This document shows, one piece after another, positions 12,359 through 57,982 of a stretch of DNA of 64,000 nt. Made by a program: the position numbers and the translations under genes. The notes beneath the pieces were generated by a model. The model made no database searches and was not told the origin of the DNA. It worked only from the letters and a program-made list of their open reading frames with translations. The first letter of the stretch is position 1. Each line of letters starts with the position of its first letter. Source of the DNA: Bifidobacterium sp. WK012_4_13 (GTDB lineage: Bacteria > Actinomycetota > Actinomycetes > Actinomycetales > Bifidobacteriaceae). The DNA is taken from NCBI RefSeq assembly GCF_041080835.1, contig NZ_CP129683.1:2356001-2420000 (forward strand). The letters run 5' to 3'.

Positions 12359-12485
12359 CTCGAGATTCCAAGTTTTGAGAGTTCATCAAAGTACAAAGAC
12401 CCTATTTTTGGCTTAACTTCGACGAGAACAAGCCAAAAATAGGGTCTTTGTACTTCCACTAGTTCTCAAAACTTGCAAACTCGAG
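12359..12485. repeat. Long intergenic palindrome A (also bidirectional terminator candidate)
   Basis: The arms are about 56 bp with roughly eight mismatches; the inner 26 bp are perfectly complementary around a 15-base loop. It lies between the convergent binding-protein gene and coaX. The outer part shares CAAGTTTTGAGA and AAGTA.AAA with the other palindromes (B-H), but the inner stem (GACCCTATTTTTGGCTT) is its own. Confidence 0.8.
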
Positions 12486-12532
12486 ACGATATCTCTATAC
12501 ATTGCTAGAAACGACCACATATCAATGAGAAC

Positions 12533-13303
12533 TTACCGATTTCTGTTCCGATCATAGATCATCTGCATGCCCTTGAAGATCAGATTGGGATCATAGATGT
12601 CAATGACGTCCGTTTCTCCTTCGATGATGCGTCCGAGGCCGCCGGTTGCGACGACCTTGAAGCTTTCGTTGGTTTCGGCTCGGAACTGCTTGACCGTGCG
12701 CTCGATTCCGCCGAGGAAGTTATAGAACAATCCCGCCTGCATGGCCGTTCTCGTATCGGTGGCGAAAACAGACTTGGGTCTGGTGATTTCGACCTCGGGC
12801 AGCTGTGCGGTCTTGTTCGACAGCGCCGAGGCTCCACTTCGGATGCCGACCGAAATGAGGCCGGCTGTTATCGTTCCCTTGTCGGTCACATAGTTATAGG
12901 TGGTGGCCGTGCCGAAATCCAGAACCAGCAGCGGTCCGCCATACGATCCATATGCCCCTACGCAGTCGCACAGGCAATCTGCGCCGAGCGATCGTGGATC
13001 ATCCATGCGAATGTTGATGCCGGTCTTGATGCCAGGGCCAACCACGATTGGCTCAACGCCAAAGAACTTGATGATTGCAGCGCGGAATGAGTGCATCACG
13101 TTGGGCACCACGGAAGAGATGATCACATCTTCAACATCGTCGTTGGAGTAGCTGCTCATCTGAAGGAATCCGCTGATCATCATGCCATATTCATCGGAGG
13201 TGTGGCTCACCGAGCTGGTCATGCGGTAGTTGGCAACGATGTTGCCGCCTTCGAGAAAGCCGAGCACAATGTCGGTGTTTCCAATATCAACGGCAATCAG
13301 CAT
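12533..13303 (-). CDS. coaX: Type III pantothenate kinase
   Basis: CoaX phosphorylates pantothenate in the first step of coenzyme A synthesis. The 256-residue protein has the family ASKHA phosphate-binding motif at the N-terminus (MLIAVDIGNTDIVLGFLEGG), the DPRSLGADCLCDCVGAYG segment with catalytic Asp, and the C-terminal VVATGGLGRIIEGET loop. Type III kinases are insensitive to CoA feedback. It stands alone on the minus strand between the galactoside locus and the peptide-transport operon. Confidence 0.96.
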   Translation of the reverse strand: MLIAVDIGNTDIVLGFLEGGNIVANYRMTSSVSHTSDEYGMMISGFLQMSSYSNDDVEDVIISSVVPNVMHSFRAAIIKFFGVEPIVVGPGIKTGINIRMDDPRSLGADCLCDCVGAYGSYGGPLLVLDFGTATTYNYVTDKGTITAGLISVGIRSGASALSNKTAQLPEVEITRPKSVFATDTRTAMQAGLFYNFLGGIERTVKQFRAETNESFKVVATGGLGRIIEGETDVIDIYDPNLIFKGMQMIYDRNRNR

Positions 13304-13578
13304 AAGCAGTCCTTTTCCAATGCAGGCGCGTGTTCTCTGTCACTGTATCGCAACTTGAAGCGACTGCCGAACGTGAGCCGGCCGATTGCGCATGATGTAC
13401 AAATTCACTTCGCGGGAATTGCCGGGAACGCGCTATCATGGTGGGGTGATGGTCGACCTCATAAGGCGGCCAATCAGCATCACACCGCTAACGTTGACGG
13501 ATGCGACGGATTGCCGTGAATGGGGGCGAGTGCGATACATGCAAATAATTCAATATGTAACACACAAGAGAGAGCATA

Positions 13579-15276
13579 ATGGCTGAAAACTCAAACAGCG
13601 GGGATGCGACGAGCACCACGACTGAATCAACGGAACAATTCAAGGCTCAGGGCATTGCGCCAGATTCAAACGATCAGGCAGATCTAGGCAGTCGCAATGT
13701 GTCAGGCGATCAGTCAGGATCGACTGACGAATCACTGAATTCATATCAGAGGCAGCGCAAAGGCATGCCATCCTGGGCATGGATCATAGCTGCGATAGCA
13801 GCTGTGGCGATTGTAGTTGGGGGCGTGTTCGCATATCAACGCAACAATTCAGGCAGCGATGCCGCTGCCGCATCAGACTCGATTGCCATTGGACTGACAC
13901 TGGCTCCAACCAATCTTGACATTCGCAATGAGGCGGGTACCGCTCTCGATCAGGCTCTGATCGGCAATGTCTATGAGGGTCTGGTGGCTCGAAATTCCGA
14001 AAACACCGTCATTCCTGCACTGGCGAAGTCATGGACGGTATCCAGCGATGCCAAGACCTATACCTTCGAGCTCAATGCCGACGAGCATTTCTCGAACGGC
14101 GATGCCTTGGATTCCAAAGACGTTGTCTGGTCGCTCGACTCGGTGATCAAGAACGAATATCAGGATTATCAGGTTCTTGCCAACGTTGACTCCATTGCTG
14201 CAGATGGTGCGAATACCGTTGTCTTGAAGCTCAAGAAGCCTGATGCGACGCTGCTGTGGAACCTCACAGGGCGAGCAGGTCTCGTCTTCGACGAGGACGC
14301 TTCGTATGATGCCAAGACGCAGGCCATTGGTTCTGGCCCATATTTGCTGAAAAGTTTCAAGCAGAACGAATCGTTGACCTTGACGGCCAACACGAAGTAC
14401 TGGGGAAGTCACCAGGCAAAGACCAAGACGGTCGTGCTCAGATACATCACGGACACCAATGCTGCAATCAATGCGCTGAAGGGCAACAGCATTCAGGTCC
14501 TTGCCCCGATAACGGAGAATCTCTCCGCATCGATTGCAAAAGACAGCAATTATGTCGTCAAGGCTGGCAACGACACCGACAAGTTCGTGCTTGCCTTCAA
14601 CGGCAAGGGTTCGAAAACATCGGACAAACGCGTTCGAGAGGCAATTCGCTATGCGATTGACAATAAGGCACTGATTTCTTCGCGTGGTGGTGCGGACGCA
14701 GCTCTAGGCGGTCCGATTCCATCGTTGGATCCCGGATATGAGGATCTCACGAATCTCTATCCATACGATCAGTCGAAGGCTAAGAAGTTGTTGGCCGAGG
14801 CCGGATACAGCACTTCCAATCCATTGAAGCTCAACTTTGAATATGCGAATATCTATGGCACCGATCTTGGCAATCAGCTCCGTTCACAGCTCAAGGCCGT
14901 AGGCATTGACTTGAATGTCAAGGTTGTCGAGTTCTCTGCCTGGCTGCAGGATGTCTATACCAACAAGAACTATGACCTTTCTTTGGTCGACCACAACGAA
15001 AGTCACGATTTCTACAATTGGGCCAATCCCGAATACTACTTCAATTACGACAACAAGCAGGTTCAGGAACTCTATGCCAAGGCTGTCGCGTCCACTTCGG
15101 ATGCCGAGTATGAATCGTATCTGAAGAAGGCTGCCCGCTTGGTTTCCGAAGATGCGCCTGCTGACTGGCTGTTCAACTACCGCGTCACCACGGCATATCG
15201 CAAGGGCGTCACCGGCTTCCCGCTCAATCTCAACCAGTCGCTGCTGCCTTTGTGGAACGTTCAATACAAGGCCTAA
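13579..15276 (+). CDS. Peptide ABC transporter substrate-binding protein (SBP family 5)
   Basis: This 565-residue extracellular oligopeptide-binding protein has family 5 features such as IGNVYEGLVARNSENT and the DLSLVDHNESHDFYNWANP region. Instead of a lipobox it has a long polar cytoplasmic N-terminus (about 60 residues, Ser/Thr/Asp rich). One membrane anchor follows (WAWIIAAIAAVAIVVGGVFA, about residues 66-87), so it is a signal-anchored binding protein. It is first in a five-gene operon with two permeases and two ATPases. Peptide or nickel specificity cannot be told apart by eye; peptides are the default for this gene order. Confidence 0.92.
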   Translation: MAENSNSGDATSTTTESTEQFKAQGIAPDSNDQADLGSRNVSGDQSGSTDESLNSYQRQRKGMPSWAWIIAAIAAVAIVVGGVFAYQRNNSGSDAAAASDSIAIGLTLAPTNLDIRNEAGTALDQALIGNVYEGLVARNSENTVIPALAKSWTVSSDAKTYTFELNADEHFSNGDALDSKDVVWSLDSVIKNEYQDYQVLANVDSIAADGANTVVLKLKKPDATLLWNLTGRAGLVFDEDASYDAKTQAIGSGPYLLKSFKQNESLTLTANTKYWGSHQAKTKTVVLRYITDTNAAINALKGNSIQVLAPITENLSASIAKDSNYVVKAGNDTDKFVLAFNGKGSKTSDKRVREAIRYAIDNKALISSRGGADAALGGPIPSLDPGYEDLTNLYPYDQSKAKKLLAEAGYSTSNPLKLNFEYANIYGTDLGNQLRSQLKAVGIDLNVKVVEFSAWLQDVYTNKNYDLSLVDHNESHDFYNWANPEYYFNYDNKQVQELYAKAVASTSDAEYESYLKKAARLVSEDAPADWLFNYRVTTAYRKGVTGFPLNLNQSLLPLWNVQYKA

Positions 15277-15302
15277 GGACCGTTTGCAACCATGGAATAT
15301 AT

Positions 15303-20443: not shown

Positions 20444-20554
20444 AAGCCGAACGGGCTTGCAATCGGCAGAGAACAGCGTTGCAGAAGGCAATAATAGCAA
20501 GCTTCAACCGAAAACAACGGAATTTGTAAACAACGGAATTATAAGGAAAGAATC

Positions 20555-25025: not shown

Positions 25026-25075
25026 AGGAATGTCTGATTGAATTCGCGCGGCAAGGTGGCCGATTCGGGCGTGCA

Positions 25076-25185
25076 TTCAAGTTTTTGGCACTTGCCCAAG
25101 TAGAAACGCCGGTTTGGGGCTTTATGCCGGTCGACGATTCAACGATTTCACGGCTTTCTACTTGGGCAAGTGCCAAAAACTTGAA
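25076..25185. repeat. Long intergenic palindrome B
   Basis: The arms are 31 bp and perfectly complementary (25076-25106 and 25155-25185), with a 48-base loop. It contains the family motif CAAGTTTTTGGCACTTG and lies between the GNAT gene and alr. Confidence 0.9.
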
Positions 25186-25241
25186 AACTCGTCGCGCGTG
25201 GCAGATATTCCGTCACAGATTCGTCTCAATATGGGGTCACA

Positions 25242-28760: not shown

Positions 28761-28846
28761 GACACCGCTCTGCTTGAAGTTCGGGTCTGAAGGAATGACG
28801 CGCGGAACTTTCATGGATTTTCCGCCCAATCTGTCGGAATTTCATC

Positions 28847-28968
28847 CGAGTTTGCAAGTTTTTGGCACTTGTCCAAGTAGAAACGCTTGATATGCCCGTG
28901 ACGGCGGTCGGTCTGATGCCGTTTTCGCGTGTTTGTACTTTGGCGAGTGCCAAAAACTTGCAAACTCG
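28847..28968. repeat. Long intergenic palindrome C
   Basis: The arms are 38 bp (28847-28884 and 28931-28968) with four differences, two of which would be G-U pairs in RNA. They carry the family motif GCAAGTTTTTGGCACTTG. It lies between dgt and the surface-protein leader. Confidence 0.88.
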
Positions 28969-29205
28969 CTCTGAGCTTTCCATTTTGGCGCTGTTTCTGA
29001 CATGGAACTCTTCTTCTGAGGTGGTGCTCTGCGAGGCGATTCTGCCGATGGAATACATTATGTATAATGTTGTACATTTGGTATTGATATAAATCTGTTG
29101 TCATGAGTCGGCCTTCGTAAGTTGGCTGTCATGCGTTTGGGATGTCCGGTCGCATGGCACTTGTGGTTTTGTCGGATAGAGCTTGCCGGTTTCCTTCCAT
29201 TTCGC

Positions 29206-29269: not shown

Positions 29270-32200
29270 ATGGTGCGTGGTGCTTTCGGACGGTTCGTCT
29301 CGCTGCTTTGTGCGTGCGGGCGCGTGCTCGCCGGTGATTTCTCCCGTCCTCTCCTGATTTCTCTCCGTTCGTTGCGGTCGCGCTGGCTGGTGACGGTGGC
29401 GGTGTCGTGGGTGGCGCTGGTGATCGGCGTGGTGGGTTTGGTGCAGGTGTCGTCGTTCTTCTCGGATCTGAAGTCGTTGGTTGCGTTCCAGGACACGCTG
29501 CTGAAGACGAGCGTGCCGCTGGACGTCAAGAACCTGAAGCTGGACACACATATCGGGGTGCTCGAGGACGACGATCCCACCGAGGCCGAAACCGATGCGG
29601 CATCCGTGGCGAACGTGGGCTTCGAGCGTCTGGTCTTGAGCGACGTGGCGACCCTCTCGTTCGACGTGGCGTTTGGGGGCGATCCCGGCGATGGCGCGGC
29701 GAACATGAAGGGCAGCATGATCAAGATCGCGTGGGGCGACCCGGATGACGCGCTGCCGGTCAGTGGCTACTTCTACCTGTATCCGTCGAACTGGACGGCG
29801 GCCAACATCCGCAACGACGTGAACAACGGGGCGAATGCTTCGCTGAACAAGACGGACGACGTGCTGGACCTGCCGATGAACGACGGGGACGTGTACGCGC
29901 AGGGCCAGGCGTACGTGTTCCAGGACACGGACGCTTTCCTCGTCCATGCCAGCGAGGTGAACGCATCGGACGGGGACCCGGCCAATGACAGGTCGAGCCA
30001 GACCTTCACGTTCAAGGTGGCGTTCGTGCGCGACTACGCGGCCGGTTCGGACGGCAACAGCCAGTTGCAGGCGGATTTCATGCAGTTCGATGGCAGGCGC
30101 CTGCATGTGGATGTGTCCGCGAACTCGCGGACCGGCATGAACAGGAAGGAACTCGAGCTCAAGGCCAAGATCACGCCCACGATGGTCGCGGGCACGACCG
30201 GCGAGGCTGAGGCCACGAAGTATTGGGGCAACGCCAATGCTGCGCTGAACATCACCAAGGGCAGCACGGAGACCGTGACCTATGTCGATGCGGCAAGCGC
30301 GACGGCGCTCGATTCGTCGGGCAACACCTTCACGGCGGCGGGAGGCACAATCAACACGCTCACCGAGGCGGTCACGGTGCCTACGAGCTGGAACGGCATG
30401 CCGGTGCTGGGCAGCTGGGACGTGTCCCTCGCCAAGGACCAGACCGCGATGGCGTACTACACGGATTCGAAGGCGGGCACGGCGAGCAAGCATGACCTCT
30501 ATGTCGCGGGCCGTCAGGGGGTGCTGGCGAGCAACGCGAACAGTCTGTTCCATTCCTTCCGCTCCATCAGCTTCGACCTTGGCCTGCTCGATGTGTGCGA
30601 GAGCGAGGACATGAGATACATGTTTCATAACGTGCAGATGGTCAGGGACGGCTTCTTCGACATCTCGCACTTCCGCACGCGCAACACGACCACGATGGTC
30701 GAGATGTTCCATTACTTCGGGGATTCGGCGGCTGATGGCGTCAGGCTGAAGCATATCGACATGTCGTATGGCGGGTTCGCCGACCAGAGCAAGCCCAACG
30801 TGGGTGCGTGGGACACGTCGAGCGTGGTCAACACGTCGAACATGTTCAGATATGTGTATTACGTCGAGAGCATCGACGTGACGGGCTGGGACCTGAGCCA
30901 GAAGACCAACATCGTGCTGAACAACATGTTCGAGAACGCGCAGCGACTCAAGACGCTCACGGGGCTGGGCACATGGAAGACCGACGGCGTGAGCAGCACG
31001 GCCAGCATGTTCGTCAACTGGGCGACCCAGGTGACGACCTTCACCGAGGCTGACGTGCTTGATCTCGGCGCCGACACCACAAACGGGTATTGGAACGTGT
31101 CCAGGCTCACGGCCGCGAACAACATGTTCGCCGGTGCGAACAAGATCAGAAGCATCGACGTGACGGGCTGGGACCTGAGCGCGGCCAACGCCCGTTCGAC
31201 CATCAGCACCGCTTCCATGTTCCAGAACACGAGCATGCTCTCGAAGATCGTAGGCATCGCTTCGTGGAAGACGGGCGGCGTACGCTACATGAATACGATG
31301 TTCCAAGGGTGGTGCAGCAACGCTGCTGCATGCGCCGGTGTGACGCTCGACCTGCACGCGCAGGGCGCCGACGTGTGGGACATGTCGACTGTCGAGAGCA
31401 CGTTCGCGATGTTTTCCGGCGCGACCTACGTCACGCAGGTCAATGTCACTGGCTGGCAGACCGTCAAGGTCACCACCATGGCGAACATGTTCGATGCCAC
31501 GACCAGGCTGTGCGTCATCCCCGGGATTTCGGGCCTGAAGACCAACGCGGTGACCAATGTGTCTGCGATGTTCTACCGGTGGGCGCAGGATGCCACCTGC
31601 GCGGGAGTGACCCTTGACCTGCACGCCCAGGCTGGCGGCGTGTGGGACATGTCGAAGGTCACGACGGCGGCAGCAATGTTCAAGGAGGCCACCAGGGTAG
31701 AGGGTCTCGACGTGGCTGGCTGGACGTTTCCCACGCTCAGCGGCACGAACGGCGGCGTGACCCTGGCGGAGATGTTCCGCTCCACCACGATGCTCAGCTC
31801 GTTCACCGGCATCGAGACCTGGGACACCACCGGAGTGTGGAGCACCTCGTACATGTTCGCTGGCTGGGCGAGCGGGGTCACGTTCTCGGCCGCCGTGGCC
31901 TGCGACCTGTGCATTCCGACCAGCGGCAACGCTTGGGATGTGACGAAGGTGACGAACGCGTCATACATGTTCGTCGACGCGGCCAAGGCGCGCACGATCG
32001 ACGCGACCGGATGGCAGTTCACCGCGCCGACGAACAACGTGAACCTCGAGGGCATGTTCCAGAACACGTATCTGCTCGAGACGATCACGGGCATCTCCGA
32101 CTGGCCGACAAGCTCGGTGACGAATATCGCGCGCATGTTCTATCAGTGGGGCAACAACGTGCCGACGGTCAGCCTGTCGATCACGCTCGATGCGAAGGCT

Positions 32201-35200
32201 GGCGGCGTGTGGGACGTGTCGCGGGTGACGAACGCCTCGTACATGTTCTATAACGTCGACAAAACGCACACGGTGCATGCGGACGGCTGGGAGTTCATCG
32301 CCCCGTCGAACAACGTGACGCTGAACAACATGTTCAACGAGGCCACGAACCTTCAGACCATCGACGGAATCACGAGCTGGGAGACCACGGCCGTCACGAA
32401 CCTGTCTTCCATGTTCCTCAGCTGGGGCAACGGCCTGACCGCAGCGAGCCTCAATCTGCGCACCAGTGGCGATGCGTGGGACACGGGCAGAGTCACCACC
32501 GCTGCGAACATGTTCAACAATGCTGCCAAGATGACGCACGTGGACACGACGGGCTGGGACTTCAGCGATGACACGGGGCGGACGGGCATCAACCTCGAGG
32601 CGATGTTCCGAGACACCGCCAAGCTGCAGGAAATAACTGGCATCACGGACTGGCCCACGACCGGCGTGAGCAACATCCTCACGATGTTCTTCCAGGCGGG
32701 CGATGGCGCGCAGACGACTCTGGAGCTCGACCTACACACCAACGGCGACAGCTGGAACGTGGCGCGCGTCACGAATCTGGGTTCGGCGCTGAACTGGAAC
32801 AATCCATACACGCCAAAGGACAACGGAACCTTCACCGGTTCGCGCTTCACCAAAATCGATGTCACAGGCTGGGACGTCTCCTTGGTCACAACGATGGACT
32901 CGACCTTCAAGGACACGTACCGTCTTGCCGAGATCGATGGCATCAGCGAGTGGAAGACCGCGAGCCTGGTACGCACGCAGGGCATGTTCTGGGGGCATGG
33001 AACCTCGGTCACCTATGATCCTGACGTCGTCAACCTGGACCTGCATTCGCGGGCCGACGGTTCGTGGGACACGTTGAAGCTGACGGACACGTATGCCATG
33101 TTCAAGAATGCAAGCACGATTCACCGCATCGATGCGACGGGCTGGGACTTCAGCGACACGACAGGGCGCACGGGCATCAGATTCGAGATGATGTTCCAGA
33201 ACACCAGCAAGCTGCATGCAGTGGAGGGAATCACCGGCTGGACGACGAGCGGCGTCGCGAACGTTGCTGCCATGTTCATGGCCTCGGGAGATGCTGCGAA
33301 GACGACGCTGGAACTCGATCTGCACACCGATGGTGCCGTATGGAACATGGCGAGGGTGACGAACCTGGGGAGCGATTGGAATTACAATCCGCCTTACACC
33401 GGCTCGGACAACGGCATGTTCACTGACTCCCGCTTCACCAGGATCGATGTCACGGGCTGGGACGTCACGAACGTGACAACGATGGATTCGCTGTTCAAGA
33501 ACATGTACAATCTGACCGACATCGCGGGGATCGGCACATGGAGCACCCCGAGCCTGGTACGGACACGAAGCACTTTCGAAGCCACGAGAGTGCTGAAGAA
33601 ACTTGACCTGAGCGGATTCGACATGAGCTCGGTGACGGCCATCGACCGCATGTTCCGATACACGTATGTGCTTGAGGAGCTCAAGATCGGTACCAGCTTC
33701 ATTATCGGCGTAAGCACATCCGTCGGCGATGCGGGTACGCAGATGGGGCGGGACGTTCCTGGCTACACGGGCAAGTGGTTCCGCGACCTGCATCCGACCG
33801 ATCTGGACACTCCGGTGAACATCTTTGCACAGGGCACGACGGTCGCGCAGGGGACCTGGTATCCAGAGCATACGGTGTCGCTGACCCTGGACGGCAACTG
33901 GACGGGCAAGCCTGCCGATCCGGTGAAAGCCATCAAGTATGGTGACGCGAGCGTGCCAACGTTCGCGAAGCCGACGCGCACGGGCTGGGTGTTCGAGGGT
34001 TACTGGACGGGCAAGGGCGCGGCCGACGGCGAAGTAACGGGCGATCAGGTGGTCGATGACACGGGTGCGTACGTGGACGCGATAGGATACGTCACCTCTG
34101 GCATCGGATGGACACGCTATGCGGATACGACGCTCTACGCGAAGTGGAAGGAGGCGACGTACTCGATCACGGTGAATCTGACCCGTAATGAGACCACGGC
34201 GCAGCGTGTGAACGTGTGGCTGGATTCGGATGGCGTGTCGGGTGACGAGACGTATACCGGCGCAGGCGGCTACTGGCGTGCTGCGTCGGGCACCTACAAC
34301 AGCTTCGTGATCATCGGCGTGCCGTACACGAAGACGAAGGGCAAGGTCATGGCCGAGTACATAGATGCGGGCACCTACAACCTGACCACGGGCGCGCATA
34401 CGGCCACGTCGACCGGCCAAGGCACGGCCGTGACGGTTGCGACCTATGCAGCGAACGTGACTTCGGCCCAGACCCACGCGCTGAAGATAGCGCAGCTCTA
34501 TTCGATCACGTACTCCCGTTCGACCACGCCGAGCGGCGCGTCGGGCACACTGCCAAGCGCGCAGACCAAGATCCACGGCACGGCCATCACCCTGGGCACG
34601 AACAACAGCACGGTGACCGGCTACACGAAGAACGGGTGGTACACCACGGCCACCGGCGCGGGCGGCACCGCATACGCCAACGGCGCCAGCTACGCGACCA
34701 ACGCCGCGCTGACCCTGTACGAGGCGTGGATCGTGAAGACGAACGTGATCACGCTGGATAGCCAGGGCGCGACCAGCGCGGGTACCACGGGCTATACGGC
34801 GACCTTCGGCACCACGGCTCCGGCGCTTACCGCGCCAACGAAGACGGGTCAGACCTTTGAGGGCTATTACTCTGCTGTTGACGGTGGTGGCGTACAGGTG
34901 CTGACCAGCGCGATGGAGTATCCGACGACGGTGGCTGGATTTGTCAATACGGGCAGATGGGCGCGGACGGACGAGGCTGCGGTAACGCTCTACGCCAAGT
35001 GGACGGTGACTGTAGCATTCAAGTCGTATGACGGCGCCTCGGACGTGCTGAGCAGCGTCGTGCTCGAGCCTGGCAGCAACTACACGATTCCCGCAGCGCC
35101 TGCGGTCATGAACCAGGTGTTCGTGGGGTGGGCGGAAACCGCGAACGTTTCGAGAATAACCGCGTTGTATACCGATGCGGCGAATACGGTGCGGGCGCCA

Positions 35201-36010: not shown

Positions 36011-36077
36011 TGGTTGCATCGATTGGTTCACGTTCTCGTAGAGAGGGCATCGGCTGTGTGCGTTCTGCGCATGGTGA

Positions 36078-36350
36078 TGGCGTGACCGTTTCGCTGCTAC
36101 GACAGGTTCTGGGACAAAGCAGGCATTCGCCCTTTCAATTGGCGATATCAGAACTACCTTGGGTCTTCCTTCTGATTTGAATCCGCTGCTTCAAAGTTTT
36201 AGCGATATGACCGGGTACTGGTTGCGCTCACCTGCTCACCATAATAAAGCCACAACGGTTAGTCCGCTTCCTTCCAACGTCAGCGAGAGAAGTGTGCGCA
36301 ACGAGACAGCGGCCGCCCGTCCTGCCATGTGGGTCGAGATACCCCAGTAG
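36078..36350 (+). pseudogene. Decayed second copy of the surface protein C-terminal domain
   Basis: The frame starting near 36078 reads RFAATTGSGTKQAFALSIGD, matching CFATTVGSGAKQAFQLSYGD in the C-terminal domain of the preceding gene. It ends AARPAMWVEIPQ, parallel to ARPALWLTL there. It has no start codon or upstream domain, and a stop precedes it. It looks like a fragment left by duplication or recombination of the 3' end. It could also serve as a silent donor for C-terminal exchange. Confidence 0.75.
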
Positions 36351-36604
36351 TTGTGATTGGCAGCTCTCTATCCGTCCCGCTTTGTGGATGGTGCCGACGC
36401 TGTAGCCATGGCCTGGGTGTCTGCGTGGTTGCGGCGGGGTTGCTGCCGTATTGGACGCTAAAATTCCGGTTCGACATGCTTCGATCCGTTTCTCGGAGAG
36501 GGAGGGGTTGTACCCGATTCTGTCCGTTCGGGGTCGTCCGTGCTCCGAAGGGAAGGCAATCCCACTGGCCCGCGCCCAGCCTCTCCTGCTGCATCTCCCT
36601 CAGG

Positions 36605-36740
36605 GCGATGCAGCATCTCTTGGTCTTGAGATGCAGCATCTCTCGTGCAGAGATGCTGCATCTGTCGGTGTGGAGACGCGACTTCTGTGAGTGTGGAGAT
36701 GCGGCATCACTCGGGAAGCGATGTGACATGCCGTCGCCGT
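36605..36740. repeat. Degenerate 22-23 bp tandem array with internal palindromes
   Basis: About six head-to-tail units begin at 36605, 36628, 36650, 36673, 36696 and 36718. The core is GAGATGCAGCATCTC, itself a palindrome around its central base, followed by a TCGGTGTG-like tail. Units are contiguous with no spacers. Confidence 0.75.
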
Positions 36741-36802
36741 GCGCAGGCGCATTATCTGCGTTCGCGGGTTGTCTGCTGGCGGTATTTGGCGTGCTTTTGC
36801 AT

Positions 36803-36900
36803 TGTTGTGGCCGGTTTTCAGGAAAGTGCCGGTATCTAGGCGTTTTTGCACCGTAGTTTCAACGTTCTCAAAGGTCGATTCTGAAACAGGGCCACAAAAA
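36803..36900. repeat. 98-bp dispersed repeat, copy 1
   Basis: This segment is about 85% identical by eye to 37384-37481 in the same orientation. Shared blocks include CCGGTTTTCAGGA and AAAGGTCGATTCTGAAAC. The complementary strand keeps the same peptide frame in both copies (ESTFENVETTV and DTGT.LKTG). Confidence 0.8.
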
Positions 36901-37044
36901 TACGATTTCACCTGTTTTCTCCGATATTTCTTCTGGCGCTTCTCCTTTTCTTGCCCGTTTCTCAGCGGCTTCGGCTCTTTGCAGGGCTTTCCGATCTTGT
37001 TCCTCTCGCTTTTGGCGTGCTGTCGAGCTTCTTCCACTCCCACT

Positions 37045-37156
37045 TTGCAAGTTTTGAGAACTTGGCAAAGTATAAACGCCCCAAATCGGCTTGAATCCGA
37101 CCGCCGTCATGCCGTTTCCGACGGTTTGTACTTCGCCAAGTGCCCAAAACTTGCAA
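37045..37156. repeat. Long intergenic palindrome D
   Basis: This 112-bp element has 33-bp imperfect arms starting TTGCAAGTTTTGAGAACTTG. The loop core AAATCGGCTTGAAT and GCCGTTTCCGACGGTTTG closely resembles those of E and F. Confidence 0.85.
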
Positions 37157-37251
37157 TGCGGACCCGATGGCAAGGTGTGCAGCATCCATTTGGCGTATGG
37201 GTTGGTGAAGATTCTTGAACGATGCTTCCCACGTCATCCCGGGCGTCCCTT

Positions 37252-37353
37252 TGTCATCCCGAGCGAAGTCGAGGGATCTCTCGACTACGGCTACGCCTCC
37301 GCTCGAGATGACGGGGGAAGCATGTGTGGCGTGACGGGGGAAGCATGTGTGGC
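37252..37353. repeat. REP-like inverted repeat followed by a 23-bp direct repeat
   Basis: The segment from GTCATCCCGAGCG to CTCGAGATGAC (37252-37311) can fold on itself with GTCATC/GATGAC and TCGAG/CTCGA pairing. It resembles intergenic elements seen in many unrelated bacteria. It runs into two exact tandem copies of a 23-bp unit (37308-37330 and 37331-37353) beginning TGACGGGGGAAGC. Confidence 0.65.
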
Positions 37354-37383
37354 GTGACGGTGTGGTTTGGCTTGAGGGTTTTA

Positions 37384-37481
37384 TGTTGTTGCCGGTTTTC
37401 AGGATAGTGCCGGTATCAACGCATTGGCGCACTGTGGTTTCAACGTTTTCAAAGGTCGATTCTGAAACGAGGCAGCAAAAT
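37384..37481. repeat. 98-bp dispersed repeat, copy 2
   Basis: This is the second copy of the 36803-36900 element, in the same orientation. It lies just upstream of an AT-rich segment carrying two small genes. Confidence 0.8.
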
Positions 37482-37703
37482 AATGTCCATGTGACCCTCG
37501 TTTTGCTAAGTATCCGACTTTTCAAGGATTGAAAATCCCTTTGGCTCACTTCTAGCAGGTGTGAGCCAATTGCAGACTGGATACTCCTGATTCGAATTAA
37601 CTCGTGTACTATTTTTTATATCCTGTCAAATTATTTTGGTTATGCAATGCAACAATCCAAGGTCAATCTGGCGCCGAGCATTTCTTTCCAAGAAAGATTC
37701 ATT

Positions 37704-37889
37704 ATGAGCGATTTGGATTGGTTCTCAGGAGCAGGTCGACGCCCTTGGACAAATTCATCGAATGAACAAGATTCGCTTGCAAAGCAGATCAATTTCTCAT
37801 TTGATTATGTTGAGATCATGGATCTACGCAATCAGAGCCATAGCGGTTATCGTGCGGTGCACCGGGAGGACTCATGGAAGGCATTCTGA
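37704..37889 (+). CDS. Small hypothetical protein
   Basis: This is a 61-residue frame (MSDLDWFSGAGRRPW...) in an AT-rich stretch unlike its surroundings. No family is recognised. It is acidic and polar with no membrane segment. The start at ATG 37704 has an AAGAAAGA site; the frame is open back to 37647. It overlaps the next small gene by 16 bases, which supports coupling. Likely acquired. Confidence 0.45.
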   Translation: MSDLDWFSGAGRRPWTNSSNEQDSLAKQINFSFDYVEIMDLRNQSHSGYRAVHREDSWKAF

Positions 37890-38152
37890 TTAAATACAAC
37901 CGCAAGAACGGCGAACGCATCGTACATGAATTTAAAGGGGACGATGGTTATCTTGAGGCAATGCAGACCAAGACGTTCCTAGAATCCATCTCACAGCCTC
38001 AGGCAGACTGGGAGGTCGTTGTTATCGGATCCGATTCGATAGCGACGGTGGAAAGGACCCATTCGAGATATTTTTCCGGTAGGGATGTCACTTCAGATTA
38101 TGCCGATGTGAAGTACGTATATAGGACTGCAGGGAAACCATCAATCTCTTAG
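37874..38152 (+). CDS. Small hypothetical protein
   Basis: This 92-residue soluble protein (MEGILIKYNRKNGERIVHEF...) has a good ribosome binding site, GGGAGG 6 bases before ATG 37874. It has a plausible alternating beta pattern (WEVVVIGSDSIATVERT) and no recognised domain. It overlaps the upstream small gene by 16 bases. Base composition is AT-rich relative to the window, suggesting transfer. A palindrome (E) follows it. Confidence 0.6.
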   Translation: MEGILIKYNRKNGERIVHEFKGDDGYLEAMQTKTFLESISQPQADWEVVVIGSDSIATVERTHSRYFSGRDVTSDYADVKYVYRTAGKPSIS

Positions 38153-38608
38153 AGTGTGACTTTCGAATATTCAATGCTTGGAGTAATCGGATATGATGTC
38201 TCGTCTGACTTCCTCATGGTTGTGATGAAGTGTCGGCGTGGCAACATGCGAAAATGTGGAACTCACCGTTGTGACACAGATGGCGTATAAATACTCCTGA
38301 CCACCGGTGTGAGTGTGGACGCACCCACTTTGCAAGTTTTGGGCACTTGTTGAAGTATAAACGCTCCGAATCGGCTTGAATTCGACCGCCGCCATGCCGT
38401 TTTCAGCGGTTTATTCTTTGCCAAGTGCCAAAAACTTGCAACTCCGGACCTTCTGCAATGAACGATGCCGCGGATTTCCATACGGATTCAGATTTGAAGC
38501 GCTAAGAGAGCCAATAGGTTTAATCGGTTTAATAAACGGTCTATGACTTCTTGCGTGATATTCGGCGGGTGTGATGGATGCGTCATCGTGACGGTCTGAA
38601 TTGTGGGG
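38153..38608. other. 456-bp intergenic stretch
   Basis: Apart from palindrome E it holds no gene I can support. It separates the small gene pair from the convergent tetR gene. Confidence 0.6.
38330..38441. repeat. Long intergenic palindrome E
   Basis: This 112-bp element has arms starting TTGCAAGTTTTGGGCACTTG and ending CAAGTGCCAAAAACTTGCAA. Its loop core GAATCGGCTTGAATTCGACC is near-identical to that of D and F. The middle of the stem has mismatches. It lies between convergent genes. Confidence 0.87.
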
Positions 38609-39166
38609 TTATAGTCGGGCAGGAAGTGCAACGGCAGTTCTCAAGGACAACGAGGCGATGATCTCATCGCTGAGTGCTGCAGGTTTGATGGCGTCTCCAT
38701 GCTGCAGATGGAATCGAAGGATGTTCCATAAGCCGCCGATCATCAGCAGGTCGATGTGCTTTTCATCGCCAAGCTCGCCGTCATGCCAAGGAAGAGGCTG
38801 CAATGGCAACAGTTCGATGAGTCGTCTGGTCTGAACGTCGAGCACTGAGCCCAGGAGGTTGTTGCGCTGCAATACTCTCAGCGTGGGCGCAGATGCGTTC
38901 CAGAACGTGAAATAGTGAATGAGAAGATCTCTGAAATCCACGAACCCGAGTTGTTTCGCCTGAGCCAGGTACTGATCCACCAGTTCACAGATGTACTCGT
39001 CTATCACATCTTGCTTGCCATGAAAGTTCTTGTAGAACGTTTTCCTCGACACGCCAGCCGAGGCGGCGATCTCGGATATCGTGATCTCGTTGAAGCTGCT
39101 CGTCCTCAGCTTGCAGAGCAGCGCAGCCACTATCATGCTTCTGGATCTCATCGCCGTCGAATTCAT
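38609..39166 (-). CDS. TetR-family transcriptional regulator
   Basis: This 185-residue regulator has an N-terminal TetR helix-turn-helix (FNEITISEIAASAGVSRKTF, then YKNFHGKQDVIDEY). ATG 39166 is chosen: it has AGGA upstream and removes an N-terminal extension (open to 39259) that would run through the operator. It is divergent from the HXXEE membrane protein gene, and a near-perfect 24-bp palindrome lies between them, so it probably represses that gene. The ligand is unknown. Confidence 0.88.
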   Translation of the reverse strand: MNSTAMRSRSMIVAALLCKLRTSSFNEITISEIAASAGVSRKTFYKNFHGKQDVIDEYICELVDQYLAQAKQLGFVDFRDLLIHYFTFWNASAPTLRVLQRNNLLGSVLDVQTRRLIELLPLQPLPWHDGELGDEKHIDLLMIGGLWNILRFHLQHGDAIKPAALSDEIIASLSLRTAVALPARL

Positions 39167-39247
39167 CAATCCTGCCTCTTCCGAAAGGTTACAGAAGCAC
39201 GAATCTGTAACTGTCATCGTCTGATTGCCGGAATCGATCATACAGTA

Positions 39248-39271
39248 AATAGGTAACATATGTAACCTATT
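39248..39271. promoter_or_regulatory. Palindromic operator between tetR and the HXXEE gene
   Basis: A 24-bp palindrome centred on CATATG matches its complement at 22 of 24 positions (half-site AATAGGTAACAT). It ends just before the AAGGAG ribosome binding site of the divergent gene. This is the classical position for a TetR-family operator. Confidence 0.75.
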
Positions 39272-39282
39272 AAGGAGTGGAT

Positions 39283-39804
39283 ATGGAAATGTTCCTAAGC
39301 TACTGGATTCTGCCGATTCTGTTCATACTGCATGATTTCGAAGAGATGATAGCGATGCCGATTTGGAAGAGAAGGCACCGTCGGATGCTTTCGACCATGA
39401 GCAAGCCATTTTTCGGCGCAGTCTCCAATGGGCAGGCGTTCTCGTGCGGAGTTCTGGAAGAAATGACGATTCTTCTCGTTGTTTCCGCCATCTGCAGCGT
39501 AACGAACGACAGCACGCTCTATCTTGCATTCTGCATTGCATACGCGTCACATTTCATCATGCACTATCGCATGTGCATGCAGATGAGGGCATATGTGCCT
39601 GGCGTGGTCTCCGCCACGATAGAGATGCCGGTGATGATCTGGCTCATCATCTCATACTGGCATATGGGACAGGCGACGTTGGAGACATTTCTCGCCTATC
39701 AGGCGGTGGTGCTGCTCTTCGTCTATGCGAATCTCCTGATCATGCACAGGTTGATGCCTGCAATCCAATCAAGGCTCCTGGCTTATGCCAATGACCCTGC
39801 CTAA
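39283..39804 (+). CDS. HXXEE-domain membrane protein
   Basis: This 173-residue polytopic membrane protein has the motif HDFEE (HXXEE) at about residue 15 (LHDFEEMIAMPIWKRR) and four or so hydrophobic segments. The family is of unknown function, with the His/Glu residues possibly binding metal. ATG 39283 follows AAGGAG by 5 bases; ATG 39289 is an alternative. It probably forms a self-contained unit with the divergent TetR regulator. Confidence 0.8.
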   Translation: MEMFLSYWILPILFILHDFEEMIAMPIWKRRHRRMLSTMSKPFFGAVSNGQAFSCGVLEEMTILLVVSAICSVTNDSTLYLAFCIAYASHFIMHYRMCMQMRAYVPGVVSATIEMPVMIWLIISYWHMGQATLETFLAYQAVVLLFVYANLLIMHRLMPAIQSRLLAYANDPA

Positions 39805-40021
39805 TGCGCGGACCTGATTCGTGGGACGGACAGCGCTGATCTGTTGCCTATACTCATGCTGGTGGAAAGCCGGTGAACGGGGCGATTGTCCGCGACTGCC
39901 ATGCATCGTCCGGTCGTTACACGGCGACTGAACTCACCGCCATGCACCTGTCTGCACACTCGGCATGCTCTCTCGAACGCATGAAGTTCATCGGCGGAAC
40001 CTCCATGATCGCGGCCAGCGC

Positions 40022-40375
40022 CTAGCCATTCGTGAGCTGAACATACTCAACCACATTCCCATCGGGATGCCTGGCGACCAGCCGCGGGCCATTCGGACCT
40101 GGATCGGGCCCCTCCAGCAGTTCTCCGCCAGCACGGGCGACTGCTTCCACGACCCTGCCCATATCGTGAACATTGACCGTGGCGACATGGGCACGCACCT
40201 CGGCATCGGCACCCTGCAGCAGAAGGAACGCCCCCACCTTTGCCAGACGAACCCCGTCATGGGAAAACATCAGAGGAGAGTCATCTCCGGTCAATTCCTC
40301 ATACAATGGCAAAGCGCCATCCAGATCGTCCACATAGACACGAGCAAGCACGCTGATAATATTGTCATCCATCAC
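40022..40375 (-). CDS. VOC-family (glyoxalase/bleomycin-resistance-like) protein
   Basis: This 117-residue protein of the vicinal-oxygen-chelate fold starts ISVLARVYVDDLDGALPLYE and ends ARHPDGNVVEYVQL, the typical beta-alpha-beta-beta-beta pattern with the terminal metal-ligand region. The substrate is unknown. It is monocistronic on the minus strand. Confidence 0.85.
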   Translation of the reverse strand: MMDDNIISVLARVYVDDLDGALPLYEELTGDDSPLMFSHDGVRLAKVGAFLLLQGADAEVRAHVATVNVHDMGRVVEAVARAGGELLEGPDPGPNGPRLVARHPDGNVVEYVQLTNG

Positions 40376-40417
40376 GCCTCCCTAGACGTGCTTCCATCTT
40401 CCCACGGCGTTCCCGTG

Positions 40418-40612
40418 TCCGCCCAGTCTGCACGGGAACAGCGCGAGCCCAGCGACAGTATCCTGCTGGATGGTCGGTATAGGGATCGCCAGTTGAAGGG
40501 CGATGCGCGCAGATTCAGGGAATTGCATATTCAGGGTGATTGGCTTCTGGTATACCGAGTCGAAGGGGAGCAAGTCATCCTCGCACGCACCGGCACGCAT
40601 GATGGCCTCTCG
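40418..40612 (+). pseudogene. YafQ-type toxin remnant (C-terminal half)
   Basis: The plus-strand frame reads LKGDARRFRELHIQGDWLLV then ILARTGTHDGL. This parallels the intact YafQ at 41310 (LKGELAGFRELHIQADWLLI, TTGSHDDLF). The N-terminal half and any start codon are missing. The final active-site Phe is Ser here. It has no adjacent antitoxin, so it is a dead copy. Confidence 0.75.
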
Positions 40613-40831
40613 CAAGGGTGGACTGTTCGCGATTATCGTGCCTTTGCAACGCTCGATTCTTCCCGCCGTGTGATATGTCCGTGTGACTCGACCGTCTGAT
40701 GTGCCGGTTGTTCAGATGTTGTCGTTCCAAGCCGTGCTTCTCGCGTTTTGTGAACTTGGCGTATGACTGAGGGGCATGAATCGCGCAGATTACCGTGATT
40801 CGTTCCAATTCCATCGTATGGTGAGCCCACT

Positions 40832-40943
40832 TTGCAAGTTTTTGGCACTTGGCAAAGTATAAACGCTCCAAATCGGCTTGAATCAGACCACCGTGATGCC
40901 GTTTTCGCCGGTTTGTACTTGGCCAAGTGCCAAAAACTTGCAA
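40832..40943. repeat. Long intergenic palindrome F
   Basis: This 112-bp element has arms TTGCAAGTTTTTGGCACTTG and the matching CAAGTGCCAAAAACTTGCAA, with a stem of about 30 bp. The loop core AAATCGGCTTGAAT is as in D. It lies between the toxin remnant and the dinJ promoter. Confidence 0.9.
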
Positions 40944-40970
40944 GTTGAGTCTGTTGAATGCGAAATCTGA

Positions 40971-41040
40971 AATTTATTGTATGTTCAATGTATAAGTATC
41001 ATATGTATAAATGGTATACAATAGCATTGTAAATGCATGA
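40971..41040 (+). promoter_or_regulatory. AT-rich promoter/operator of the toxin-antitoxin module
   Basis: A strongly AT-rich stretch carries repeated half-sites (TTGTATGT, GTATACAA, CATTGTAA) and a -10-like TATAAAT. This fits autoregulation by a DinJ-type antitoxin. Exact operator boundaries cannot be set. Confidence 0.5.
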
Positions 41041-41065
41041 CGAGTGAGGAAAGGAGGTGAGAGAA

Positions 41066-41317
41066 ATGAGTACTACGACGATTGCGATTCGTACCGACGA
41101 GGAGACGAAGCGCGAGGCTCAGAAACTGTTCAAATCAATGGGAATGGACATGAGCACCGCGATCAACATGTTCCTGCGTCAGACCATCAGCGAGCATCGC
41201 TTGCCATTCCGGCCTGGCTTGAGTCGATTCGAGCGTGAGGTTCTCGATGCTGCAAGCGAACCGGCGCAGAAAGTTGAAAGCCTGGAGGAATTTATCAAGG
41301 AGATTCGTGATGCTTAA
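41066..41317 (+). CDS. dinJ: RelB/DinJ-family antitoxin
   Basis: This 83-residue antitoxin has an N-terminal ribbon-helix-helix DNA-binding motif (TTTIAIRTDEETKREAQKLF, then MSTAINMFLRQTI) and a C-terminal toxin-binding tail. ATG 41066 follows GGAGGTG. It overlaps the toxin gene by 8 bases. It probably represses its own promoter. Confidence 0.93.
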   Translation: MSTTTIAIRTDEETKREAQKLFKSMGMDMSTAINMFLRQTISEHRLPFRPGLSRFEREVLDAASEPAQKVESLEEFIKEIRDA

Positions 41318-45188: not shown

Positions 45189-45189
45189 G

Positions 45190-49390: not shown

Positions 49391-49452
49391 GAAGGCATCC
49401 GCTCCACAGCGGACATGTCCCAAAGATGCAACATGAAGAAAGCCGGATTACA

Positions 49453-53018: not shown

Positions 53019-53040
53019 GTGATCGGCTGAGTGATCCATG

Positions 53041-53150
53041 TTGCAAGTTTTTGGCACTTGCTGAAGTATAAACGCGCAAAAACCTTGATGCGGCGTACGG
53101 AACGAAGCCGATCTGAGGCTGTTATATCCGAACAAGTGCCAAAAACTTGA
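53041..53150. repeat. Long intergenic palindrome G
   Basis: The outer arms CAAGTTTTTGGCACTTG (53044-53060) and CAAGTGCCAAAAACTTG (53133-53149) are perfectly complementary over 17 bp. The inner part is more diverged than in D-F. It starts about 25 bases after the dnaG stop. Confidence 0.88.
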
Positions 53151-53309
53151 AGGTCCGATGCGATTGCTCTCCGAATATGCAGAGCGATGGAAGATTCTGT
53201 GGCATAATGCTTGCAAATGTTCGCATATGTTCGAAAATGCAGTCCCATCCACGCATATGAAACTCGCGCACGCCTCTATCCGTGGGTGTGACTACAATAG
53301 TTCTGGTTT

Positions 53310-53383: not shown

Positions 53384-53587
53384 CGATTCTTTCTGCATCA
53401 ATGATTGCAAGGCAAGGCATTCGCTTGGATGGAGCCTGGGATTTGGGTGTAGCTTGGGGTTTCGTGCCCGATGCCCGATGCATCAGGACTTTGGCCACTT
53501 CTTTGCAAGGCCGCCACTTTTTATAAGACAGTCGCTTGTTTGTATGACAATCGCTTCTTTGTAAGACTGAGGCATTACACTTCAACT

Positions 53588-55516: not shown

Positions 55517-55640
55517 CCCATGATGTGTGTTCGGCATCATGCGATTGGTTCCCGACGCTTCGCAATCAACGTAGTTCACGTCGTTTTCTTCACTCGTGCG
55601 TAGAGTAGGCAGGGTCACATCGTTCGGATTGCGAGGTCAT

Positions 55641-56174
55641 ATGTCGTTATTGAATCGGAATGAACATAAATCAACGCCCTCAACTGACCAGCCAGTGGTT
55701 GCTGTGGTGATGGGATCGTCGAGCGACTGGGAAACCATGAAGCATGCTTGCCAGATTCTCGATGATTTTCATATTCCTTACATGAAAAAAGTCATTTCTG
55801 CACATCGCACGCCTGAGCTCATGGCAGATTTCGCGCACCATGCACGAGAGAATGGGCTGAAGGTCATCATTGCGGGAGCAGGTGGCGCCGCGCACTTGCC
55901 GGGCATGGTGGCGGCTCAGACGACGCTTCCAGTGATTGGAGTTCCCGTTCAATCCCATGCATTGAGTGGTTGGGATTCGCTGCTTTCCATAGTGCAGATG
56001 CCTGGAGGCATACCGGTCGCAACGACGGCCATCGGCAATTCCGGGGCGACGAACGCGGGAATCCTGGCAGTGAGCATCCTTTCGACGAGCGACTCCACTT
56101 TGGCCGATGCGCTCGCGGCATTCCGTGAAGAGCTCAAGGAGAAGGTCGAGGAATCAAATGCCGAGCTTAAGTGA
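55641..56174 (+). CDS. purE: N5-carboxyaminoimidazole ribonucleotide mutase
   Basis: PurE rearranges N5-CAIR to CAIR in purine synthesis. The 177-residue protein has [30 protein letters not shown] and [20 protein letters not shown], all diagnostic. The last residues are a charged helix ([15 protein letters not shown]). ATG 55641 has GAGG upstream. It overlaps purK by 17 bases. Confidence 0.97.
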
Positions 56175-57330
56175 AGAGACCAAGGGACGAATCACGATGC
56201 TTCAGCCTGGTGCCACGATAGGCATCGTCGGCGGAGGTCAGCTTGGTCGCATGATGGCTCTGGCCGCGAAATATCACGGATTCCGAATCGGCGTTCTCGA
56301 TCCGACACCGGACTGTCCGACGGCGCAGGTCGGTGACTTCCAGATCACCGCGGACTACGACGACAGACACGCCATACACGAGCTTGCCGAACGCAGCGAT
56401 GTGCTGACCTATGAGTTTGAGAACGTCGATGCCGATGCCCTTGACGAGGTTCGTGGCAAGACCGCCGTTCCACAAGGCACAGATCTCTTGCGCGTCACCC
56501 AGGACAGAGTCTTCGAGAAGCAGTTCATCAACGATCATGGAACGCAGACGGCACCGTGGCGCCAGGTAGACGATCTCGGTCAGTTGTCTGCTGCCATCAG
56601 GGATCTCGGATACCCCGCAGTGTTGAAGACGCGGCGTGGCGGATACGATGGGCATGGGCAGCTGGTGCTGCGCAGCGATGACGACCTTGACATAGTACGA
56701 AAGCGCGAGAAGGATACCGGCATATTCCCTCCGTCGATCCTGGAAGGATTCGTCGACTTCGCATTCGAGGCTTCGATTCTGATCTCTGGCAATGGCAAGG
56801 ATTTCGTCACCTTCCCGATCGTGCGCAACGAGCACCGTCACAACATCCTTCATCTGACCATCGCTCCGGCAATCGTCGACGAGGAGGTAGCCGAAGAGGC
56901 CGAGGCACTTGCATTCAGGCTTGCGAAGGGCTTCGAACTCGCAGGGACGCTCGCAATAGAGCTGTTCATCACGCGGGACAACAAGGTCATCGTCAACGAG
57001 CTCGCCCCACGTCCGCATAATTCCGGGCACTACACCATCGAGGCTTGCTCGATGAGCCAGTTCGACGCGCATATCCGAGGCATAGCCGGATGGCCGCTGC
57101 CCAAGCCGGAACTGCTCAGCCCAGCGGTCATGGCCAACGTCCTCGGTCAGCATGTCGCTCCCACCAGGGCACTGATAGGAGCGCACCCGGAATGGAATCT
57201 GCACGATTATGGCAAGGCAGAGGTGAAGCAGAATCGCAAGATGGGTCATATCACCGTGCTTGCTGAAGACACGGATGCCGCGGTCGAGGAACTGGAAGCC
57301 ACAGGATGCTGGTCAGATCTTGAGGATTGA
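56158..57330 (+). CDS. purK: N5-carboxyaminoimidazole ribonucleotide synthase
   Basis: PurK uses ATP and bicarbonate to carboxylate AIR, feeding PurE. The 390-residue ATP-grasp enzyme has the N-terminal motif [30 protein letters not shown] and the metal-binding [21 protein letters not shown] 56158 follows GAGGA by 6 bases and overlaps purE. ATG 56197 (MLQPGATIG) is nearly as good and would give 377 residues. Confidence 0.96.
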
Positions 57331-57337
57331 AGCCTTA

Positions 57338-57370
57338 TGATCGCAGGCGCATGGGGCACGCCTGCGATCA
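57338..57370 (+). terminator. Hairpin after purK
   Basis: A 12-bp perfect stem TGATCGCAGGCG/CGCCTGCGATCA with a 9-base loop begins 8 bases after the purK stop. There is no U tract. Confidence 0.65.
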
Positions 57371-57445
57371 GCTTCAGGCGAGTCGATTGATTCCTGATGC
57401 GTGTCTGCGATACATTGGAACGGAAGGCAGAGCATAAGGAGCGAT

Positions 57446-57841
57446 ATGACCGAGCATGTAATACGGCAGACGAAGCAGAAGGATGCAGTTCGAAAAGCTC
57501 TCCGCGCCTCAGGCGACTTCGTGACCGCCCAGGAATTGCATCGTCAGCTTGAGGATGATGGTTCGACGATCGGTCTGGCAACGGTCTATCGGCAATTGAA
57601 CCTGCTGGCAGAGGTCGGGCAGGCGGACACGATTCAGCTCAATGGCTCTCAGATGTTCAGAATGTGCGAGGATACGAGCCATCATCATCATCTGGTATGC
57701 ACGCACTGTGGCAAGACGGTTGAAATCGAGCCGCCCGATGAGACGTGGCTGAGAAAGACCGCTGCCGCGCACGGTTTCACGGTGAGCTCCCATACTTTGG
57801 AACTGTTCGGACTCTGCGAAGACTGTCAACAGGGTCAATAG
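57446..57841 (+). CDS. Fur-family metal-responsive regulator
   Basis: This 131-residue repressor has a winged helix (DFVTAQELHRQLEDDGSTIG, then LATVYRQLNLLAEVG). Metal ligands are in SHHHHLVCTHCGKTVEIE and the C-terminal LCEDCQQG, whose two CxxC pairs form a structural zinc site. Its short size and Cys content resemble zinc-uptake (Zur) types, but Fur versus Zur cannot be decided. ATG 57446 follows AAGGAG. Confidence 0.93.
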   Translation: MTEHVIRQTKQKDAVRKALRASGDFVTAQELHRQLEDDGSTIGLATVYRQLNLLAEVGQADTIQLNGSQMFRMCEDTSHHHHLVCTHCGKTVEIEPPDETWLRKTAAAHGFTVSSHTLELFGLCEDCQQGQ

Positions 57842-57852
57842 CGGGTCCTGGA

Positions 57853-57982
57853 AAATCGAGATTGCGAGTTTTGCGGCAATTTCAAAGTATCAACCGCTGA
57901 AATCGGCTTTCTGCCCATGGCACTTCAACGGTTTTGCACCTCGTATACTTTGAAATTGCCGCAAAACTCGCAATCTCGATTT
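57853..57982. repeat. Long intergenic palindrome H (variant stem)
   Basis: The arms are 38 bp and perfectly complementary (57853-57890 and 57945-57982), with a 54-base loop. The stem sequence (GCGAGTTTTGCGGCAATTTC) differs widely from B-G. The flanking core (CAAAGTATCAACCG, AAATCGGCTT, AACGGTTTTGCAC) matches D-F. It lies between the convergent fur-like and mprF-like genes. Confidence 0.92.

Follow-up and report, generated by a model that had tools for sequence, protein, structure and literature searches.

Eight palindromes and their family in the host genome

The window analysed here comprises 64,000 nucleotides of Bifidobacterium sp. WK012_4_13 (contig NZ_CP129683.1, positions 2,356,001 to 2,420,000) and contains, between its genes, eight dispersed long palindromes that we refer to as elements A to H (Table 1). 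They belong to a large family of non-coding repeats that, we suspect, spread as DNA and whose two arms tend to change together. All eight were recovered by an inverted-repeat finder at the positions given in the original prediction, which had been made from the letters alone, and the perfect arms that it reported for B (31 bp) and H (38 bp) were confirmed. Other details of that description hold in part. The loop core said to be shared by D, E, F and H is one base off in E (GAATCGGCTT), and the outer arm GCAAGTTTTTGGCACTTG, described as common to most copies, gives way to different arm sequences in A and H. With the simple codon-score gene caller made for this analysis, which supplied all gene calls used here in place of a curated annotation, a plus-strand gene lies to the left of seven of the eight elements, as had been claimed, the exception being F with its weak minus-strand call; D, said to follow the 3' end of a gene, sits about 1 kb beyond it. 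Over the rest of the genome, copies come after genes of both strands, so that the supposed plus-strand rule reflects the window.

The elements share a common plan. In 36 of the first 42 copies, the span between the anchors AAGTTTT and AAAACTT is exactly 104 nt. From the outside inwards, an element consists of CGAGATT, an arm core, three variable bases, AAGTAT and a less symmetric part that carries AAATCGGC, AAATCGTTGA or TTTTTGGCTT, often with CG-N2-CG at the centre, and an inner box, AAGTA...TACTT, is conserved. The CGAG...CTCG ends are sharp: across 90 elements, information is 0.75 bit at position -10 and 0.03 bit at -11, CGAG occupying -10 to -7. Flank repeats of 1-9 bp at the boundary of 104 elements, sought as target-site duplications, are near expectation, bar small excesses of 2-bp (12 against 7.5 expected) and 4-bp repeats (3 against 0.4 expected). 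The folds predicted for 42 copies are strong, at -30.7 to -72.9 kcal/mol (without a shuffle control).

The arm core comes in several forms, for which we coined the dialect labels D1 to D6: D1 is TTTTTGGCACT, D2 comprises related forms, D3 is TTTTGCGGCA, D4 is TTTTGCGGCCTT, D5 is TTTTGTTGCCTT and D6 is TCATTGTGAACT. Most D1 arms contain a short inverted repeat of their own (CAAGT-N7-ACTTG), and every listed dialect has copies with AAGTA.

Table 1. Palindromic elements A to H, in window positions, with the span assigned by the covariance model and the character of the arms
Element	Inverted repeat	Model span	Strand	Arms and ends
A	12359-12485	12360..12484	.	Inner arms perfect over 26 bp (AAGTACAAAGACCCTATTTTTGGCTT), outer arms mismatched
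B	25076-25185	25069..25192	.	D1 arms (CAAGTTTTTGGCACTTG), perfect over 31 bp
C	28847-28968	28846..28969	.	D1 arms; CGAG...CTCG ends intact
D	~37040-37161	37039..37162	.	Arms GAGAACTTG / GGGCACTTG
E	38330-38441	38324..38447	.	Mixed arms: left D2, right D1
F	40832-40943	40826..40949	.	D1 arms
G	53044-53149 (28-bp core)	53035..53158	.	D1 arms; strong mismatch further in
H	57853-57982	57856..57979	.	D3 arms (GCGAGTTTTGCGGCAATT), perfect over 38 bp

Elements D, E and F fall within 3.9 kb of weak coding calls (window 36010-41066), beside a called reading frame of 2246 amino acids (29270-36010). A further inverted repeat near D (37222-37323; 24 bp, 88%) has arms outside the family.

The window holds a small part of the family. 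A search of the host genome with element F gave 94 rows that collapse to 40 places, the best 40 of 66 candidates being scored. A first covariance model, R1, built from 39 gapless copies, gave at least 150 strand matches in the host genome and 160 strand matches, or 80 places, in 54 segments totalling 533 kb. Thus, the covariance-model check named in the original prediction yielded further genomic copies in number, at least 80 places in the 533 kb. A scan for structure only found 15 family palindromes in a 208-kb host block and 18, together with two unrelated palindromes, in a 210-kb block of the related genome G018, against none in two block-shuffles of either. One host block of 208 kb carries 15-17 elements, and the window of 64 kb carries 8; by extrapolation, a genome would hold about 150-200 copies (175-200 from the host densities). 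The copies are dispersed from 45 kb to 2.41 Mb.

Two comparisons between copies bear on their boundaries. Element F and the copy at 206573 are alike at 81% over 241 bp, and the match ends 4 bp inside the modelled right end. Two identical elements near 689710 and 1593900 (L042:3991-4461 and L049:3636-4122) share their right flank: 221 bp are identical and 487 bp, element included, agree at 94%, with only 4 identical bases on the left side. This pair is a duplication with one end at the element end.

Called genes are touched by 2 of 80 copies, with an overlap of at most 4 bases. By context, 48 of the 80 lie between tandem genes, 24 between convergent and 7 between divergent ones, with 1 at an edge; all gaps longer than 150 bp in the same loci number 121 tandem, 38 convergent and 48 divergent. 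Copies stand at a median of 66 bp from a 3' end (n=96) and of 210.5 bp from a 5' end (n=62). Such 3'-side, extragenic placing is usual for extragenic repeats and alone is no argument for function. At one host locus (L045:3995-7867) three elements stand beside genes that we take, by eye, for those of valyl-tRNA synthetase, chorismate mutase and the transcription terminator Rho. A composite mobile unit was considered and rejected, given that the genes listed between close elements look housekeeping or secreted by eye, with no transposase-like ones among them (no family search was made).

Spread among species and shared gaps

Both R1 and a second, more diverse covariance model, R2 (148 rows), match the family in 5 of the 27 Bifidobacterium genomes searched. 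The search of other bifidobacteria proposed in the original prediction therefore finds the family present, and patchy. Three genomes (G000, G015, which is B. aquikefiri, and G018) are matched densely and two weakly, G007 with 12 strand matches to R1 and 2 to R2, and G017 with 10 and 5. In B. mongoliense there are four places, with GAGAACT on both arms. Leaving out palindromes without a dialect match on either arm, of which at least three in G018 resemble D3 variants, the host has 41 D1, 15 D2, 26 D3 and 11 mixed elements (n=93), G018 has 16 D3, 13 D5, 10 D6, 2 D4 and 5 mixed (n=46), and G015 has 4 D3, 2 D5 and 1 mixed (n=7). D1 and D2 were seen in the host genome only, D4 to D6 in the relatives only and D3 in both.

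Scans of 80 kb per genome extend this picture. G004 has two palindromes, of 104 and 120 nt, with yet another arm (GTGTAGGG); at L149:4667-4770 and L150:1632-1751 of this genome the arms are TTGTGTAGGG or TTTGTGTAGGG, with AGTA inside. These are perhaps an additional dialect beyond the reach of the models. One possible relative was found in G007, none in G017 and G022, and one palindrome unlike the family in G001. Models tuned to the known dialects may therefore understate the spread. Outside the class, Enorma massiliensis gave 36 weak strand matches (best E value 1.4e-5), and one of its loci contains two palindromes (L065:508-650 and L065:4539-4683) whose arms read GGGCA, which carry AGTA as inner box and which have the loop stretch TTCTACCTGCGCTTTTG in common; a sister family in Coriobacteriia is possible. 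Among 296 Actinomycetota genomes, searched under stricter filters with at most the 12 best candidates per genome considered, the host itself was the only one matched at E 1e-4. Viral contigs, searched with a single exact pattern of two D1-like arms, gave no match.

From the perspective of inheritance, it is instructive to compare the host with G018 gap by gap. We used a collinear block of 175 host and 171 G018 genes (122 reciprocal best hits, median identity 89.5%), the choice of which was not blind, since three shared gaps within it were known beforehand. Twelve of the 15 host elements in it lie in syntenic gaps, 9 opposite a G018 element and 3 without counterpart; of the 18 G018 elements, 16 lie in syntenic gaps, 9 opposite a host element and 7 without counterpart. 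Among 106 syntenic gaps, 11 are occupied in the host, 15 in G018 and 8 in both, versus 1.56 expected (P=2.9e-6); counting long, non-divergent gaps only, P is 2e-4 to 5e-4. With the three previously known gaps removed, 5 shared gaps remain versus 0.93 expected (P=4e-4, or about 0.01 on long, non-divergent gaps).

A wider set comprises 18 pairs in orthologous gaps, one of which involves an unrelated palindrome and two of which are cross-pairs of a gap with two elements per species. For 6 of the 17 family pairs, loop homology exceeds the null. Element H is among the elements with a G018 ortholog and a homologous loop, and its inner arm bases differ from that ortholog on both sides.

Concerted arms and competing explanations

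Arms that change together were already part of the original prediction; this is correct for the arm core and less so further in, where many copies have mismatches. In the six pairs with homologous loops, the two arms of a copy agree in 130 of 144 cells, whereas corresponding arms of the two species agree in 112 of 144 (p=0.006, an optimistic value, since the cells are not independent). In 16 orthologous-gap pairs, a set from which the unrelated palindrome and one anchor-less pair were dropped and in which the cross-pairs were kept, the numbers are 336 of 384 within copies versus 241 of 384 between species. The clearest case is host 2066462 and G018 654774, where the loop and both flanks align and AATTCC stands on both host arms versus CTTTTT on both G018 arms. 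At host 1980063 and G018 571375, one G018 arm is still D3 and the other is D4.

Across copies, cells with a double change number 112 versus 69.5 in shuffles, a value reached by none of 500 shuffles, and the covariation score and the percentage paired also exceed the shuffles. Arm covariation is thus above the shuffles on three of five measures and lacks a clear excess on two. Relatedness inflates the measures that exceed the shuffles, so it is the orthologous pairs that carry the case for concerted arms. Copying or correction at the DNA level accounts for the arm covariation at least as well as selection on a folded RNA. Element A has an inner-half identity of 17/20, an outlier among host copies (the other 79 measured at most 11), and both of its halves carry TTTTTGGCTT within the perfect inner 26 bp, the mismatches lying outside. 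This pattern is how a templated correction tract would look.

We propose, with a probability of about one half, that these elements are one family of non-coding, discrete-ended palindromic repeats of about 120 bp that have spread as DNA, in the manner of REP/REPIN sequences or palindromic miniature inverted-repeat transposable elements (MITEs), with concerted evolution of their arms. The mobile half of the original prediction, which had offered a mobile, MITE-like or an RNA-level element, fits the at least 80 copies, the sharp ends, the patchy distribution among species, the presence and absence in syntenic gaps, and the avoidance of genes and of the promoter side. A REPIN-like mode of working is suggested by the hairpin, the sharp ends, the lack of a clear duplication, the extragenic sites and the species dialects. 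In this scenario, a trans-acting enzyme recognising the hairpin would move the element, and one arm would template the correction of the other, either through a template switch at the quasipalindrome or through conversion from another copy. The arms would remain complementary because of this correction, and dialects could spread arm by arm.

Several results weigh against this proposal. None of 10 candidate occupied/empty gaps aligns to a clean junction, so that movement is something we infer. The RAYT model (Y1 transposase, PF01797) matches none of the 27 genus genomes, all five carriers included, with a positive control in 5 of 14 named genomes. The loops of 11 of the 17 family pairs, two cross-pairs counted, are no more alike than those of random pairs; such pairs could have arisen by divergence or by independent insertion, and the case for inheritance in place is the weaker for it. 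A clear change of both arms with the loop kept is seen at one locus only, the cells in the arm comparisons are not independent, and 4-bp flank repeats are slightly in excess. The two covariation measures without clear excess, position pairs with a double change (24 versus 23.2; 224 of 500 shuffles) and further pair types (67 versus 62.2; 36 of 500 shuffles), are those least inflated by relatedness. The previously known shared gaps and these two flat measures weaken single arguments, and the remaining tests still point to a palindromic repeat spread as DNA.

A bolder version of this proposal is tentative. The elements could be a new class of palindrome that evolves arm by arm, in which a dialect would be taken from another copy, the second arm rewritten via a DNA hairpin, and both arms reset at fixed loci in each species. 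This would involve a single-stranded or cruciform intermediate and a non-RAYT enzyme of some bifidobacteria, perhaps also of Coriobacteriia.

Searches of open-licence papers, those naming Bifidobacterium included, brought up no account of such a family. The family is large and apparently undescribed, and most notable is that both arms change in concert at orthologous loci. If so, bifidobacteria would possess a large repeat family, extrapolated to some 150-200 copies per genome, and with it natural, replicated loci at which RNA-structure selection and DNA-level arm correction, two easily confused explanations of covarying stems, can be separated. This is so since the orthologs of related species lend themselves to a comparison of each arm.

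It is unlikely, in our view, that the elements act as RNA, for instance as structured hairpins in 3' untranslated regions or as small RNAs involved in transcript protection or processing, selection on the fold keeping the arms complementary. Their closeness behind gene 3' ends would suit such a role, as would the strong predicted folds, the three covariation measures and the gaps shared between species. The loops also tend weakly to run opposite to the neighbouring genes (31 opposite and 17 same among 80 copies, p=0.06; 10 and 2 at the strictest of four cuts, p=0.04 uncorrected), an orientation that is not clearly fixed. However, selection on an RNA fold would favour G.U pairs, and mismatches on the transcript strand of 118 elements in tandem contexts comprise 83 G.U, 104 A.C and 242 others; without an excess of G.U over A.C, such selection is not supported. 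Moreover, 22 of the 27 genus genomes have no model match, and Rfam at its gathering score found nothing but a tRNA in the window. Runs of at least four T within 12 nt of either end occur in only 10 of 112 elements, as expected from the original prediction, which had noted the lack of U tracts; with 102 of 112 elements lacking such a run, intrinsic terminators were rejected as an explanation. The RNA-level half of that prediction is thus not borne out.

An origin as ordinary MITEs also appears improbable. In that case each element would be an internally deleted DDE-type insertion sequence with terminal repeats that are transposase binding sites, and the arms would match through the transposase of their own dialect. 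The elements do have terminal inverted repeats on a short non-coding body, like MITEs of the ERIC, RUP and Correia types, and arm cores conserved within each dialect, sharp ends, species-specific dialects and dispersed copies agree with this origin. It is less easily reconciled with an element that is quasi-palindromic throughout, near-constant in length and furnished with inner motifs that recur across dialects, or with the copy that combines a D3 arm and a D4 arm. In addition, the 40 places found with element F are about 104-122 bp long, with no longer unit having the same ends among the best 40 of the 66 candidates, and there is no clear target-site duplication. ERIC repeats have a TA target duplication.

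Less probable still are domesticated DNA sites, in which an arm would be the binding site of a chromosomal protein, such as a nucleoid or segregation factor, and the dialects would track the specificity of that protein. CAAGT-N7-ACTTG in most D1 arms, AAGTA in copies of each listed dialect and the gaps shared between species are what such sites might show, but the coexistence of several dialects in a genome would require several paralogous factors, and, of the elements in syntenic gaps, 3 of 12 in the host and 7 of 16 in G018 have no counterpart in the other species.

Two further candidates were set aside. Integron attC sites do not agree with dispersed copies and no clustered cassette array; the integron integrase model TIGR02249 gave no match over cut-off in three genomes (sub-threshold matches in all three), and the control genomes had none over cut-off either. 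Loss of SbcCD as the cause of palindrome survival offers no contrast between carriers and non-carriers, as TIGR00619, the model of the SbcD exonuclease family, matches none of the 27 genus genomes (13 of 14 control genomes match, 8 over cut-off). This may make the genus permissive for palindromes without singling out carriers.

Comparison with known repeat systems

A strict REPIN/RAYT system, although suggested by the inverted doublet with its long hairpin and by extragenic, multi-copy placing, is very improbable and already contradicted, barring a strongly diverged HUH enzyme, by the 27 of 27 genomes unmatched by PF01797 (control matched in 5 of 14) and by ends that read CGAG and not GTAG. 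Likeness to REPINs is another matter, and membership is not claimed. As described in PMC3116915, REPINs are inverted doublets that form one hairpin, lie outside genes and occur in many copies and several sequence groups per genome, as here, where a RAYT match is lacking in the 27 genomes. The REPIN tag given in PMC3733652 is GTAG, and the ends here are CGAG. The bifidobacterial elements also differ in their arms of about 30 bp, their conserved inner AAGTA box and their near-constant length.

ERIC sequences, for which PMC2267715 gives up to 127 bp, an intergenic location and a single long stem-loop, resemble the present family in being intergenic palindromes of about 120-127 bp with one long stem-loop and many copies. 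The family differs in that one genome carries several arm dialects, the two arms of a copy being alike, and in that no TA or other clear target duplication was found. The REPs with a CGTC tag in PMC3733652 are likewise palindromic repeats without a known dedicated transposase, but they are units of 20-40 bp, whereas the elements here are of about 120 bp; the words Bifidobacter and Actinobacteria are not in the main text of that source.

The closest parallels to the arms lie in two systems of another kind. Quasipalindromes grow more perfect via template switching in Escherichia coli (PMC7202029), and palindromes in mitochondria have concerted arms in which pairing is preserved (PMC6649704). The proposed behaviour of the bifidobacterial arms is alike in that arm-to-arm copying would perfect a palindrome and that substitutions fall at paired positions. 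The setting is different, since PMC7202029 deals with reporters or individual loci of E. coli and further hosts, and PMC6649704 with coding palindromes in the mitochondria of nematomorphs, whereas here the arms belong to a family of repeats dispersed over a bacterial chromosome.

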